Positions 7,486-21,841 of a stretch of 22,496 bases of DNA are shown here, in pieces. Within the stretch, counting starts at the first letter, position 1. Each line of letters begins with the position of its first letter. A program made the position numbers and the translations under genes. The stretch spans positions 1 through 22,496 of IMG/VR virus record IMGVR_UViG_3300030101_003760; one strand, 5' to 3'. Under the pieces are notes generated by a model, which ran no database searches, was not told the DNA's origin, and was given only the letters and a program-made list of their open reading frames with translations. Source of the stretch: a virus.

Positions 7486-7699
7486 ACCAAGAACAACTAA
7501 AGAGCATATAATATCTTTGTATGGACATATTGAGGGTGTGAAAAAAGACGTCAATTCAATAAAAAATAATCACCTTGCTCACATACACGCAGATATTGAT
7601 AAGCTTGGTTCGAAAGTCGATAAGTTGTTATTTTGGTTAATGAGTGGTATGCTCACAATAATCATAACAATAATAGGACTTATAGCGTGGATCCAATAA
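7478..7699 (+). CDS. XhlA-like small membrane protein, holin candidate
   Basis: 73 aa, starting inside the end of the large virion gene (8-nt overlap ATGCCTGA), with AAGGA at 7466-7470 seven bases upstream. The N-terminal 45 residues are charged and heptad-like (EGVKKDVNSIKNNHLAHIHA), and one strongly hydrophobic C-terminal segment spans residues about 49-71 (LLFWLMSGMLTIIITIIGLI). A coiled coil followed by a single C-terminal membrane span is the plan of the XhlA/hemolysin-associated phage proteins. Together with the following membrane gene it makes a plausible lysis module. I see no endolysin beside it, so the holin role rests on architecture and place alone. Confidence 0.6.
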   Translation: MPEPRTTKEHIISLYGHIEGVKKDVNSIKNNHLAHIHADIDKLGSKVDKLLFWLMSGMLTIIITIIGLIAWIQ

Positions 7700-8118
7700 G
7701 TATTGCGACAGCTGCCTTTGGGGCAATTAAATCTGGGATCGAGGTAGGAAAAGAATTAAACAGCCTATCTGGTCACATCATAAAATTTGTGAAACAAATG
7801 AGTGATGTCGAAGAAGAACATAAGAAAGAAAAAAGCAAATGGTTTACTTCTTCAAACGAAGAAGCTCTACATACATATTTTGCTTTAAAACAAGTTCACG
7901 ATATGGAAAATCAATTACGAGAAATATTTACTTGGCACGGAGCACCGGGTGCTTGGAGTGAATTTGTTGCAATTAGAACTGATATTAGGAAAAAGAAAAT
8001 TGCAGCAGAGGCAAAACGTAAAGCAGAAAGAGAACAATTAATGGTAAATTGTGCTTATGGTTTACTTGCAGTAACTTTAATTGGATTAATTATTTTTCTT
8101 GTAATGTTGCTGAATTAG
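7687..8118 (+). CDS. Membrane-anchored protein of the lysis region, GTG start
   Basis: Best start is GTG 7687, giving 143 aa beginning VDPISIATAAFGAIK. AGGA at 7675-7678 lies 8 nt upstream and the start overlaps the end of the preceding gene. The upstream in-frame ATG at 7633 would add His/Asn-rich residues coded by the holin gene and is unlikely. The N-terminus (DPISIATAAFGAIKSGIEVG) is a type I recall from pelagiphage genes next to holins. The middle is helical and charged (VEEEHKKEKSKW). Near the C-terminus a basic stretch (RKKKIAAEAKRKAER) precedes a hydrophobic span (GLLAVTLIGLIIFLVMLL) ending the protein. The role is unknown; a holin partner or spanin-like envelope protein is possible. 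Confidence 0.6.
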   Translation: MDPISIATAAFGAIKSGIEVGKELNSLSGHIIKFVKQMSDVEEEHKKEKSKWFTSSNEEALHTYFALKQVHDMENQLREIFTWHGAPGAWSEFVAIRTDIRKKKIAAEAKRKAEREQLMVNCAYGLLAVTLIGLIIFLVMLLN

Positions 8119-8185: not shown

Positions 8186-8214
8186 TTTACTACCTACCTA
8201 AAATAAACTAAAAT
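8186..8214 (+). promoter_or_regulatory. Putative sigma-70-like promoter before the basic-protein gene
   Basis: TTTACT (8186-8191) and TAAAAT (8209-8214) are separated by 17 bases, a 4/6 and 5/6 fit to TTGACA and TATAAT. The element CTAAAATA occurs three times here (8198-8205, 8208-8215, 8227-8234), so more than one -10 could be used. This 135-nt gap (8119-8253) is the largest non-coding gap in the first 17.9 kb, and I saw no convincing terminator hairpin in it. Confidence 0.35.
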
Positions 8215-8235
8215 ACAGGAAGTTAACTAAAATAA

Positions 8236-8245
8236 CCTTATAAGG
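8236..8245 (+). promoter_or_regulatory. CCTTATAAGG palindrome overlapping the ribosome binding site
   Basis: A perfect 10-bp palindrome whose right half is the start of the Shine-Dalgarno AAGGAG (8242-8247), 6 nt before ATG 8254. It cannot fold as a hairpin without a loop, but it could be an operator, or the anti-SD half could pair locally. The leader TAAGGAGATA is shared with two other genes (ATG 11911, and the minus-strand ATG at 18105). Confidence 0.3.
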
Positions 8246-8253
8246 AGATAATA

Positions 8254-8475
8254 ATGAGAAAAGGTATGAAATCAAAAGGCTACGCCAAAGGTGGAGCAAA
8301 AATGATGAAAGCTATGGGCGGTAAAATGGCCAAAGGCTATTCAAAAGGTGGTACAAGAATGATGAAAGTCAAAAAGACACCTCCTAAAGTATCTGGTGCA
8401 AAGACAAAAAAAATGTCTGTTGCTGCATTAAGAAAAGCTGCCAAGATGCTTGGTATGAAAGTGAGCAAAGCATAA
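8254..8475 (+). CDS. Small basic Met/Lys/Gly-rich protein with SAP-like C-terminus
   Basis: 73 aa preceded by a strong AAGGAGATAATA leader. The first 45 residues consist of imperfect repeats of the type KGYAKGGAKMMKAMGGKMA / KGYSKGGTRMMK, with Lys on nearly every third residue, several Met and almost no acidic residues. After a Pro/Lys hinge (KKTPPKVSGAKTKK) comes MSVAALRKAAKMLGMKV, which fits the start of SAP or Rho-N type helix-loop-helix nucleic-acid-binding motifs (L-x-V-x-x-L-R-x-x-x-K-x-x-G-x-x-V). Charge and motif suggest a nucleic-acid-binding or DNA-condensing protein, perhaps packed in the virion. It stands alone behind its own promoter-like region, between the lysis and replication genes, so high separate expression is plausible. 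The function is inferred. Confidence 0.65.
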   Translation: MRKGMKSKGYAKGGAKMMKAMGGKMAKGYSKGGTRMMKVKKTPPKVSGAKTKKMSVAALRKAAKMLGMKVSKA

Positions 8476-8513: not shown

Positions 8514-9191
8514 ATGGCATATCTTATTAAGAACATACCCTATTTTAAGGTTTGGGTCAGAAAAGAATTTACACACAATCACAGAAAATATCAAGGTGAA
8601 TACATTCATGCACTCGCTTGTGCAGTGACTAGTATTCCTGATAGGTGTTTAAGTTTTCAAGTCATTTTCACTGGCTGCGAAGACGAAGAGAATAGACTTG
8701 AGAATCCTCATGGTGGAGCAATGTGGGCAAGAATGCCTATTACTGCTCTTGTGGCAGACGAGCCTTTAGATGTAATGCCTCCTCCAATAATGACTCATCT
8801 GGCACAACCATGGGATTGTTCAGCAAGAAACTTTGAGGTTATGAAATTTGATAGAACATCGAGTAGTCCTTGGCAATGTAAAATAGATGGAGAGTTTTAT
8901 ACTGGCAAATATTATTTTACTGTTGATTATACTGGTTCAGAAATAGCAGATGATCCAGCTCAACATAAACAATCGCATATACTTGAATTAACAAGTGGAC
9001 CTTATCAAGGATGTATTGTTGCTTTACCAAACAATAGAGTAAGAGTCACATCTCCTGCTATGTGGGTTACAGGAAAAGGTGCTCCAGATTTTATACCAAG
9101 TCAATGGACTCATAGTGCAGAGGGTCACGACAGCTATATGGATTGGGAAACTACTTTTGATAATCTATATGCAGATAAAGAGAAAGAATAA
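8514..9191 (+). CDS. Conserved marine-phage protein of unknown function (225 aa)
   Basis: Starts at ATG 8514, 38 nt after the basic-protein gene. A GGGG run ending one base before the ATG is a poor ribosome site. The protein is rich in Trp, Tyr and Cys, with a beta-looking composition and no signal peptide or membrane span. It opens with IKNIPYFKVWVRKEFTHNHR, contains several isolated Cys (for example CEDEENR and QPWDCSARNF) and a Pro-rich turn (DVMPPPIMTHLAQPW), and ends acidic. I have an impression of closely related proteins in uncultured marine phage genomes, always unannotated. It sits between the lysis block and the nuclease gene, and the nuclease gene starts within its last codons. No function is proposed. 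Confidence 0.65.
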   Translation: MAYLIKNIPYFKVWVRKEFTHNHRKYQGEYIHALACAVTSIPDRCLSFQVIFTGCEDEENRLENPHGGAMWARMPITALVADEPLDVMPPPIMTHLAQPWDCSARNFEVMKFDRTSSSPWQCKIDGEFYTGKYYFTVDYTGSEIADDPAQHKQSHILELTSGPYQGCIVALPNNRVRVTSPAMWVTGKGAPDFIPSQWTHSAEGHDSYMDWETTFDNLYADKEKE

Positions 9192-19102: not shown

Positions 19103-20959
19103 ATGAAACTCTTAGATTTATTTTCTGGTATTGGTGGCTTTAGTTTAGGTGCAGAATATAATAATATAGAAACAATAGGATTTGTAGAAAAAGATGCATT
19201 TTGTCAAAAAGTATTACGAAAACATTGGCCTAACACACCAATCATTGGAGATATAAGAGATGTCAAAAGAGAAACCTTTGAGTCAGTTGACATTGTTTCC
19301 GGAGGATTCCCCTGTCAACCCTTCTCAGTCGCAGGAAAACGAAGAGGAACAGACGATGACCGCTATCTCTGGGATGAAACTATTAGAGTCGTGTCCCTTT
19401 ACAAACCCCGATGGTTTGTTGGCGAAAATGTTGACGGACTTGTTAACATCCAAAACGGCATGGTACTCAGACAGGTGCAAACTGATTTGGAAAAAGAGGG
19501 TTTCCAAGTCCAATGTCTTGTTATTCCAGCTAGCGGCATCGGTGCATGGCACCAAAGAAAAAGAGTCTGGATTGTGGGCCACTCCCAACACGATGGATCA
19601 TCTACCTCCCAGGAGCAAGGAGGGTACAATCAAACTTCAACAAGGCCACAGGAAGGGGAGAACTCGTCCATCAAATCTGAGGGAGCAAGTAGATCCAGAG
19701 ACAATGGCAATGTATCGCACACCAACGACAATGGACTCGAAGGAAGACAGTTTGAAACACGCAACGAAGATGATGCAAGGAAAGACAACGAGAGCCTCTG
19801 GAGAAAGAGTACAAATAACATTAGCAGATCAAGTGATGATAGAGGAAATAAAACGAAACCCAGAGTTGATGAAGACATATCAAGACCACACGATGGTAAC
19901 GAGGAAAAACCTACCACCACCACAGATGTTTGTGAAGTATCTCAAGAGTCAAACGACAGTGGCACAATTGAACAAGCAAGTAGAGATAAAGAAAACAACG
20001 ATAGAACATTGGTTCAGAAAAGACAAATGTTTCAGTTATCCAAGTCCAGAGGATTGGGAGATGATAAAACCTCATCTGAAAGAAATAAAATACGACAAGG
20101 AGATGACAACACTGTATCCCATCGAGTGGACTCCAACGATGTATCCAACACCCACGACTCAAGACTCACGAATCGGCCCCAACAACATCAAGGGAAGTCA
20201 ACACAGGAAAGAGAGGGGCAACCCAGCTCTAGCCGACAAAATTTTATTTCCAAGTCCAACAGCAACGAATGTGAACACACCTCAACCAGACAGAGTAGAA
20301 AGAACAAAATCTGGAGGTTTTATTCTGAGGAAAAAGAACAAGCCTCATATGACCTATGGAGCAAGACTTCAAGATGCGATGATGTATCTGGAGAACAAGA
20401 AGATGTATCCAACTCCCAACACCAACGATGGAGCAACGAATCCATCAGAGGACATAGAGAATTGGGAGAAAAGAGCAGAGAAAAAGAAAAAAGAGGGAAT
20501 CAATCTGCATTACGCTCTACGACATGCAGTTCAGAAAGAGGAACAGATGAAGATGTATCCAACTCCTGTAGCGAAAGACAATTGCTCAGAGAGTCTGGAA
20601 AGTTGGGAGAGAAGAGCGAAGAAACACAAGGCTCAAGGGAAAACAATACCCAAGGCTTTGAGAATACAAGTGCAAGAGGAAAGCAAGATGTTTCCTACAC
20701 CAACACAAAGAGATTACAAGGACACAACAGTAAGCCAAGGTTATCAGAGGAGGAACTCAGATTCACTTCCGGTAAAGATGATGAAAAACAATACACCTGG
20801 TGGGAAACTCAATCCAACATTTGTGGAGTTCCTGATGGGGTATCCTATGGATTGGACAAAGGTAGAGTAGGTAGGATTAAGTCTTTGGGTAACTCAATAG
20901 TTCCCCAGATAGCTTATCAAATTTTTAAGTCAATTAAACAAGCAGAGGAGGTAAAATGA
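19103..20959 (+). CDS. dcm: C5-cytosine DNA methyltransferase with a large repetitive insert
   Basis: 618 aa. Motif I DLFSGIGG (5-12), motif IV GGFPCQPFS with catalytic Cys71, motif VI ENV (108-110), motif VIII QRKRVWIVG (151-159) and motif X SLGNSIVPQIA near residue 594 are all present, so methyl transfer to C5 of cytosine is expected, probably shielding phage DNA from restriction. Between motifs VIII and IX, where the target-recognition domain belongs, lie about 415 residues of Ser/Arg/Glu/Asn-rich, disordered-looking sequence with repeated VSN, VSH or VSY phrases instead of an evident folded domain. A second frame is open through almost all of the gene. No ribosome site is seen before ATG 19103 (AATAAAAA), so expression may be low or coupled. 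The bases here are visibly less AT-rich than in neighbours. Confidence 0.9.
   Translation: MKLLDLFSGIGGFSLGAEYNNIETIGFVEKDAFCQKVLRKHWPNTPIIGDIRDVKRETFESVDIVSGGFPCQPFSVAGKRRGTDDDRYLWDETIRVVSLYKPRWFVGENVDGLVNIQNGMVLRQVQTDLEKEGFQVQCLVIPASGIGAWHQRKRVWIVGHSQHDGSSTSQEQGGYNQTSTRPQEGENSSIKSEGASRSRDNGNVSHTNDNGLEGRQFETRNEDDARKDNESLWRKSTNNISRSSDDRGNKTKPRVDEDISRPHDGNEEKPTTTTDVCEVSQESNDSGTIEQASRDKENNDRTLVQKRQMFQLSKSRGLGDDKTSSERNKIRQGDDNTVSHRVDSNDVSNTHDSRLTNRPQQHQGKSTQEREGQPSSSRQNFISKSNSNECEHTSTRQSRKNKIWRFYSEEKEQASYDLWSKTSRCDDVSGEQEDVSNSQHQRWSNESIRGHRELGEKSREKEKRGNQSALRSTTCSSERGTDEDVSNSCSERQLLRESGKLGEKSEETQGSRENNTQGFENTSARGKQDVSYTNTKRLQGHNSKPRLSEEELRFTSGKDDEKQYTWWETQSNICGVPDGVSYGLDKGRVGRIKSLGNSIVPQIAYQIFKSIKQAEEVK
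19260..20870 (+). CDS. Nested +1-frame ORF inside dcm (536 aa, PTP-repeat protein)
   Basis: Lies wholly within the methyltransferase gene. ATG 19260 has GGAG (19247-19250) nine bases upstream, a better ribosome site than that of dcm. The product is basic. It opens with SQLTLFPEDSPVNPSQSQEN, antisymmetric to motif IV in the other frame, then KLIWKKRVSKSNVLLFQLA, then copies of a motif such as MYPTPTTQDS (ATWPxP, YRTP, YPTP, FPSP, FPTP variants). Two longer repeats read like WEKRAEKKKKEG..ALR..VQ. It ends with NPTFVEFLMGYPMDWTKV. I recall proteins with PTPTA.D repeats and LNP.FVEWLMGFP.GWT ends from many phages near methyltransferases, without known function. That the pattern recurs favours a real protein over a chance open frame. 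Its relation to DNA modification is inference. Confidence 0.6.
   Translation: MSKEKPLSQLTLFPEDSPVNPSQSQENEEEQTMTAISGMKLLESCPFTNPDGLLAKMLTDLLTSKTAWYSDRCKLIWKKRVSKSNVLLFQLAASVHGTKEKESGLWATPNTMDHLPPRSKEGTIKLQQGHRKGRTRPSNLREQVDPETMAMYRTPTTMDSKEDSLKHATKMMQGKTTRASGERVQITLADQVMIEEIKRNPELMKTYQDHTMVTRKNLPPPQMFVKYLKSQTTVAQLNKQVEIKKTTIEHWFRKDKCFSYPSPEDWEMIKPHLKEIKYDKEMTTLYPIEWTPTMYPTPTTQDSRIGPNNIKGSQHRKERGNPALADKILFPSPTATNVNTPQPDRVERTKSGGFILRKKNKPHMTYGARLQDAMMYLENKKMYPTPNTNDGATNPSEDIENWEKRAEKKKKEGINLHYALRHAVQKEEQMKMYPTPVAKDNCSESLESWERRAKKHKAQGKTIPKALRIQVQEESKMFPTPTQRDYKDTTVSQGYQRRNSDSLPVKMMKNNTPGGKLNPTFVEFLMGYPMDWTKVE
19572..20720 (+). repeat. In-phase PTP/VSN repeat elements in the dual-coding region
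   Basis: Copies resembling GATGTATCCAACNCC start with ATG at 19710, 20139, 20403, 20553 and 20688. More diverged copies lie at 19572 (LWATPNTMD) and near 20230 (LFPSPTATN). The gaps between ATG copies (429, 264, 150 and 135 nt) are all multiples of three. The last two units also share a flanking segment read as WExRAxK. In the dcm frame the same bases give VSHTND, VSNTHD, VSNSQH, VSNSCS and VSYTNT. Confidence 0.7.
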
Positions 20960-21132
20960 CTAAAAATAAAAATATGATATGTGAAGAATGTAACGGTAAT
21001 GGATATGTTCGCACAGATCAAAACAAACCAATAGCCGCAGATAACACACATATCTGTTCAGTATGTCAAGGCGAGGGAACAGTTGGTGATGCAATAAGGT
21101 TTGAGGACAATGAAGTACAATATTGGTGTTAG
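20956..21132 (+). CDS. Two-CxxCxGxG zinc-ribbon-like miniprotein
   Basis: 58 aa, coupled to the methyltransferase stop by ATGA, with AGGAGG at 20946-20951 upstream. It contains CEECNGNG and CSVCQGEG, two CxxCxGxG motifs 25 residues apart, the zinc-binding repeat of the DnaJ cysteine-rich domain. DnaJ carries four such repeats and a J domain; here there are only two and nothing else. Small phage proteins with this pair are common and may act as zinc-bound adaptors; a chaperone role is not established. The sulfotransferase gene starts inside its last codons. Confidence 0.72.
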   Translation: MTKNKNMICEECNGNGYVRTDQNKPIAADNTHICSVCQGEGTVGDAIRFEDNEVQYWC

Positions 21133-21841
21133 TGGCCTTCCTAATTTTTTAGTTGTAGGCACTCAAAAGGGTGGTACTACAAGTTTGTATCATCTGTTGC
21201 GTAGACATTCAGGAATGTTTCTTAGCACACCAAAAGAGACGCATTATTTTAGTAAAAACTATGATAAACCTTTATCTTGGTATCAAGAACATTTTTTACA
21301 AGCACACCCTTCACAGTTGCGAGGTGAAGTAACACCTTTTTACCTATTTCATAAACACGCACCAGAAAGAATATATGATAATGTACCCAATGCACGGCTC
21401 ATTGTCCTCTTACGAGATCCTGTGGAGCGAGCTATCTCACAGTATTTTCACGCAAAAAATAAAGGTTACGAGACTTTAGGTATTGAAGATGCTTTTGCTG
21501 CAGAACCACATAGAATAAATCGATCTGACTACAGCTACCAAAAACATTCTTATTTAAGTAGAAGTAGATACGATGAGCAATTAAAAAGATATAAGAAATT
21601 CTTTTCTGATAAACAAATTTTAATTATGCGAAGTGAAGATTTGTTTACAGATACATTAAATTGTTGGAAGAAATTGTTGCATTTTATTGGTGTAAGTCCT
21701 ATTGATTTACCTTGTCCTTTACCTTTTTATAACAAAGGTAAAAAAGACACAGTGCCAAAAACATTATGTAACAAACTAAAAGACGAGTTGATTAATACTT
21801 ATAATTGGCTTGAAGATAAATATAAAATAAATTGGAGTTAA
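21110..21841 (+). CDS. PAPS-dependent sulfotransferase
   Basis: 243 aa from ATG 21110 (a TTG at 21101 would add three residues). AAGG at 21096-21099 is ten bases upstream. Both PAPS-binding signatures are present: the 5'-phosphosulfate loop VVGTQKGGTTSLYHLL (from residue 15) with Lys20, and the 3'-phosphate loop RDPVERAISQYFH starting at Arg102. The KETHYF segment is typical of the heparan-sulfate N-deacetylase/sulfotransferase-like (NDST-type) group. Length is that of a single sulfotransferase domain, with no signal peptide. It would move sulfate from PAPS to a sugar or other hydroxyl or amine acceptor, perhaps on host surface glycans or on the virion. The acceptor is unknown. An auxiliary gene uncommon in small phages. 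Confidence 0.85.
   Translation: MKYNIGVSGLPNFLVVGTQKGGTTSLYHLLRRHSGMFLSTPKETHYFSKNYDKPLSWYQEHFLQAHPSQLRGEVTPFYLFHKHAPERIYDNVPNARLIVLLRDPVERAISQYFHAKNKGYETLGIEDAFAAEPHRINRSDYSYQKHSYLSRSRYDEQLKRYKKFFSDKQILIMRSEDLFTDTLNCWKKLLHFIGVSPIDLPCPLPFYNKGKKDTVPKTLCNKLKDELINTYNWLEDKYKINWS

Follow-up and report, generated by a model that had tools for sequence, protein, structure and literature searches.

The closest described counterparts of the gene reported here are the disruptins, of which the archetype is reportedly that of phage phiKT of Holt et al. 2022. In the portion available to us, PMC12819732 describes the phiKT disruptin as a short amphipathic helix, notes that the diversity of disruptins hampers their prediction, and leaves open whether phages that lack spanins encode disruptins. 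The accessible part of PMC9636201 gives no detail on disruptins, and those of PMC12753301 and PMC9599517 mention neither a holin nor an endolysin. Our subject is the gene for a small Lys-rich repeat protein, here the KGG protein, in a 22,496-base linear virus record (the window, meaning this whole stretch of DNA), whose DNA polymerase shares 70% identity with its counterpart in Pelagibacter phage HTVC023P. We tentatively suggest that the KGG protein is a polycation that may act on the cell envelope at lysis, in the manner of a disruptin.

The KGG gene, its leader, and its product

Computed from sequence, the KGG protein has a net charge of +23 and a pI of 11.5, with 23 Lys/Arg and no Asp/Glu residues, 11 Met, 11 Gly, and 10 Ala. 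The original prediction had placed an ORF for a small, extremely basic product here; its coordinates are exact and the ORF is real. Low complexity and a low-confidence structural model are features that a spurious or neutral ORF could also show, but every one of the 15 KGG gene pairs compared had a dN lower than its dS (dN 0.02 to 0.16 versus dS 0.12 to 0.93), and the gene is under selection at the protein level. Such selection, together with fixed gene order and a conserved promoter and Shine-Dalgarno sequence (SD), refutes a spurious or neutral ORF, to which we assign almost no probability.

Both the strong leader and the dedicated promoter originally proposed for this gene are supported (Table 1). 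TTTACT-17 nt-TAAAAT occurs once in the window, compared with 0.01 matches expected from shuffled sequences, and is conserved before the same gene in relatives. It is kept in all 16 aligned upstream regions, which were picked from loci with a gap of about 120 to 135 nt, its −35 element being invariant and its −10 element nearly so. A strict form of the pattern was found in 22 of 80 loci and in the window, once per locus and 65 to 68 nt before the KGG gene; the promoter is absent from other KGG loci, which have a short or different upstream gap. The palindrome between promoter and SD is, judging from the upstream alignment, a possible operator. Of the 81 genes in the KGG set, 71 are preceded by an SD match of at least 5. 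In five loci (L008, L022, L058, L065, and L067), the gap before KGG holds a conserved ORF of ∼25 codons, Lys-rich with aromatic residues and a strong SD of its own.

Table 1. Features of the KGG locus (window coordinates)
Feature	Position	Strand	Remarks
Coiled-coil-like protein of the upstream cassette, 73 aa	7478..7699	+	One C-terminal hydrophobic segment
Membrane protein, phrog_32327 (cluster 4)	7687..8118	+	GTG start inferred from relatives (MDPISIATAAF)
Dedicated promoter of the KGG gene, sigma-70-like (TTTACT-17-TAAAAT)	8186..8214	+	Conserved, unique in window
Palindrome AGTTAACT between promoter and SD	8221..8228	.	Nearly invariant in upstream alignment
Shine-Dalgarno TAAGGAG	8241..8247	+	
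KGG-repeat polycation gene	8254..8475	+	73 aa, ATG to TAA
Repeat unit 1 (KGYAKGGAKMMK)	8275..8311	+	
Repeat unit 2 (KGYSKGGTRMMK)	8332..8368	+	
C-terminal helix-G-strand motif MSVAALRKAAKMLGMKVS, half-SAP-like	8413..8466	+	Pfam, AlphaFold
phrog_3704 protein	8514..9191	+	PurM/ferredoxin in other phages' annotation

The KGGxxMMK repeats that had been noticed earlier are genuine: the protein contains two copies of KGYxKGGxxMMK, encoded by 37-nt units that are 84% identical and whose starts are spaced by 57 nt. By a loose pattern, relatives carry one to five KGG-type units (two or three in 68 of 80), and the unit KGYxKGGxxMMKAMGGKMA is the only constant part of the family. At the C terminus, 48 of 80 relatives have a helix-Gly motif like MTVAQLRAAAKKKGYKITKA, as detected by regular expression, and the remainder end differently. 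At the N terminus, six of 80 have a LysM domain (Pfam E about 1e-12 in both of those scanned, L045 and L079), a seventh LysM-bearing relative was recognized by eye, and, in PHROGs, one LysM form (L065) additionally matches endolysin families that bear LysM; a Pfam scan found no LysM in the window protein. Compared across relatives, the ends of KGG proteins are modular and the repeats constant. Two further motifs led nowhere: FTYKGKKYTT, found at the C terminus of some relatives, retrieved only scattered hypothetical proteins, and the GG motif, tried as a tag (encapsidation signal), gave no pattern.

An AlphaFold model based on 40 sequences had a pLDDT of 62 and a pTM of 0.24, with helices at residues 14 to 21 and 56 to 66, and we read the KGG protein as probably mostly disordered. 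Foldseek returned nothing for this model at E ≤0.001 (the best E, 1.4, is meaningless at that pLDDT), and a profile search of solved structures with the KGG family gave no match. Helix amphipathicity beyond that expected from composition was not detected in shuffle tests: the best 18-residue hydrophobic moment was equaled by 201 of 2,000 composition shuffles, and only 5 of 64 distinct relatives showed an excess at 5% or below, while the mean moment over 11 residues was somewhat high in the KGG protein (75 of 2,000 shuffles).

The original prediction also gave the protein a SAP or Rho-N end, which did not hold up: neither profile search nor model yields a confirmed domain. SAP (PF02037) is the commonest Pfam match in the family, found in 9 of 40 members scanned at E ≤1 (best E, 0.0039); Rho_N (PF07498) was matched by 2 of the 40 at the same threshold (best E, 0.035), the window protein not being one of them. 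The window protein scored 12.5 bits against SAP, whose curated cutoff is 23.9, in an alignment spanning positions 3 to 22 of 37, and the low-confidence model has one C-terminal helix (56 to 66) and no second. The KGG C terminus shares with SAP and Rho_N the first helix and the following Gly-hydrophobic turn, but is without a second helix and falls under the curated cutoff. The resemblance recurs across the family, yet stops after the first helix, and we did not file this end as SAP. Lsr2-like phage proteins (phrog_1223) are basic like KGG and show a weak whole-length similarity that is not significant (E 0.1).

Distribution and gene neighborhood of the family

Scanning IMG/VR viral contigs yielded 87 KGG relatives, 80 of which were kept (L001 to L080); a pattern scan added nine contigs that carry the repeat, and a LysM-form query two more. 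The genomes of 84,980 species gave two matches (L111 and L112), both of phage type, and we rejected these as bacterial copies: L111 agrees with viral contig L010 in both its length and the position of its match, and the genes of L112 stand in phage order. The assignment of L111 and L112 to Maricaulis and Flavobacteriaceae MAGs probably reflects binning errors. The tblastn search of 50,697 phage records with the 73-residue protein returned nothing, which does not imply absence, since the low-complexity filter probably masked the query; blastn with the KGG gene of L017 gave only short chance matches. From its sequence matches, the family is virus-only, marine, and widespread, occurring in phages related to those of SAR11, and, judged on titles and the starts of abstracts with partial coverage, no paper listed in literature searches names it.

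At 78 of 81 loci, KGG is followed by a gene for a phrog_3704 protein; the gene before KGG encodes a membrane protein belonging either to cluster 4 (phrog_32327) or to cluster 8 (phrog_2524). Where at least 1.6 kb of upstream DNA was present (69 loci), such a membrane protein always precedes KGG, as determined by tblastn; it ends within 0.9 kb of KGG in 68 of these loci and 1.0 kb away in the remaining one. In 44 of the 69, the membrane protein is itself preceded by a small coiled-coil-like protein that has one hydrophobic segment, and such transmembrane (TM) coiled-coil genes could be i-spanin-like. Clusters 4 and 8 are unrelated at E 1e-5 and occur in different genome backgrounds: downstream of KGG, one setting has replication genes and the other has genes for GroES, scaffold, and capsid, with head-cluster names partly read from sequence by eye. 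Farther upstream in the window, the ORF at 1182-2255 matches the DNA ejection protein phrog_4287 (E 1.6e-8).

Several other genes deserve mention. In L112, an ORF on the opposite strand that by eye resembles a 2OG-Fe(II)-oxygenase lies between cluster 4 and KGG, and L012 likewise has an opposite-strand ORF there. The PurM name looks doubtful for the gene that follows KGG in the window, which lacks Pfam matches at E ≤1, has no profile match to a solved structure, and gave a poor model (pLDDT 51.7). Two plus-strand ORFs (19103-20959 and 19260-20870) overlap by 1.6 kb in different frames, one matching C5 DNA methylase (Pfam E 1.6e-49) and the other the phrog_1008 DNA methyltransferase (E 3e-28), an apparent case of dual coding. 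A sulfotransferase-domain gene (Pfam E 2e-17) is located at 21101-21841.

Endolysins and small cationic proteins in related phages

Using the M15 proteins of HTVC023P and HTVC027P as phmmer queries, we found an M15 endolysin in all five long contigs, far from KGG; a search of 34 contigs for PF13539 endolysins gave nothing above cutoff. Close to the M15 gene are TM mini-proteins and small basic DUF6321 and DUF5872 proteins (G007, G013, G015, G022, and G027; L091 to L105), Pfam names that we took from HTVC023P relatives. Together these genes seem to form a second lysis-like block, and their DUF6321/DUF5872 products would be candidates for outer-membrane breakers equal to or better than KGG. They are small and very basic and occur in the same phages as KGG, and in HTVC023P, DUF6321 occupies KGG's place before the PurM-like gene; unlike KGG, they carry Cys and lie near the M15 endolysin, and they have no detected sequence similarity to KGG. 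A crude lipobox/TM scan of the five long contigs revealed no clear o-spanin beside M15.

Among 13 distinct named phages with a cluster 8 homologue, eight have a gene annotated as endolysin, lysozyme, or chitinase either next to that homologue or one gene away: HMO-2011, CRP-901, CRP-902, T2S1 (on the other strand), Vibrio 1.113.A, K396, CRP-13, and Pseudomonas O4 (DMTU_1 is alike). HTVC025P, 275E43-1, Vp_R1, CRP-6, and 1.257.O have no such neighbor within the stretches inspected, which differ in length between phages; Marinomonas phage YY, whose genes carry misc_feature annotations, was for that reason excluded from the 13. In HMO-2011, cluster 4 and cluster 8 homologues share the lytic-enzyme block. 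The CRP-901 gp45 "peptidase," considered as an endolysin, is actually a cluster 4 relative.

Some cluster 8 homologues also have small cationic neighbors, such as HMO-2011 gp59 (+19), O4 gp21 (+15), and HTVC025P gp29 (+14). At 7 of 13 loci, compared with 1.33 expected, the immediate neighbor of the cluster 8 homologue is a small cationic gene from a different family, a count reached in 0 of 20,000 random draws; this test was framed after four of the 13 loci had been viewed. The nine previously unread loci gave a cationic neighbor in four (P 0.0009), with P rising to 0.016 when the control rate is given a floor of 0.08, and to 0.09 if an HNH-like neighbor is discounted as well; a different HNH-like neighbor, in L107, was retained in the count because a second cationic ORF adjoins there. 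These counts are only suggestive of an association between small cations and cluster 8 membrane proteins.

Possible roles and comparison with disruptins

Of the roles considered for the KGG protein, we prefer one at the envelope, with low confidence, over nucleic-acid binding and over service as a virion or ejection accessory. It is favored because of the LysM fusions and the fixed association with lysis-type membrane proteins. The protein would be expressed from its own promoter within a membrane-protein cassette, and might remain cytoplasmic until opening of the inner membrane; it could then bind anionic envelope polymers (peptidoglycan and outer membrane) and contribute to outer-membrane breakage at lysis in the manner of disruptins. 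Activity would reside in the constant repeats, and the ends would be swappable, with LysM in some relatives and a short helix in most. Against this reading stand the lack of KGG amphipathicity beyond composition, the location of the M15 endolysin elsewhere, near other small basic proteins, in five long relatives, and a C-terminal motif that leans toward nucleic-acid-binding folds.

A late nucleic-acid binder, whose lysines coat or condense phage DNA or the host nucleoid while a SAP/Lsr2-like helix adds contact, is slightly less likely. The high positive charge with no acidic residues, the prominence of SAP among Pfam matches, the phrog_1223 match, and the placement of KGG in an operon with an exonuclease (window type) or with head genes (cluster 8 type) are all consistent with it, but only half a SAP is present, under cutoff and missing its second helix; C termini vary across the family, and LysM fusions would serve no purpose in a protein that condenses DNA. 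No result is specific for DNA condensation, and the LysM fusions and gene neighborhood seem, at low confidence, to point to the envelope instead. Less probable still is an accessory that is packed with internal virion proteins and, during entry, freed into the periplasm, the LysM variants then holding the wall. The LysM fusions would suit it, as would the position of window-type KGG behind large internal-virion-like proteins, including the phrog_4287 match; on the other hand, an independent promoter sets KGG apart from virion genes, and cluster 8-type KGG lies in a head operon rather than beside tail genes.

A broader proposal, in our view improbable, extends the envelope role beyond this family: in marine phages, a PHROG_2524 or PHROG_32327 membrane protein would commonly be accompanied by a sequence-unrelated small polycation that acts as an outer-membrane breaker, which would make these polycations a broad unrecognized class of disruptins, with KGG (sometimes anchored to the wall by LysM) as one large family. 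Phages of SAR11 are among the commonest viruses in the sea, and the KGG family, with its fixed cassette and dedicated promoter, allows the question of their exit through the outer membrane to be tested in a laboratory strain; if KGG instead binds DNA, it would represent a new protamine-like phage family. In contrast to the phiKT disruptin with its short amphipathic helix, KGG is a Gly-rich repeat in which excess amphipathicity was not found, and its gene departs from the disruptin pattern in lying away from the endolysin. Like the disruptins, however, KGG is a small cationic phage protein (73 residues, +23), and both have membrane-protein neighbors of lysis type.
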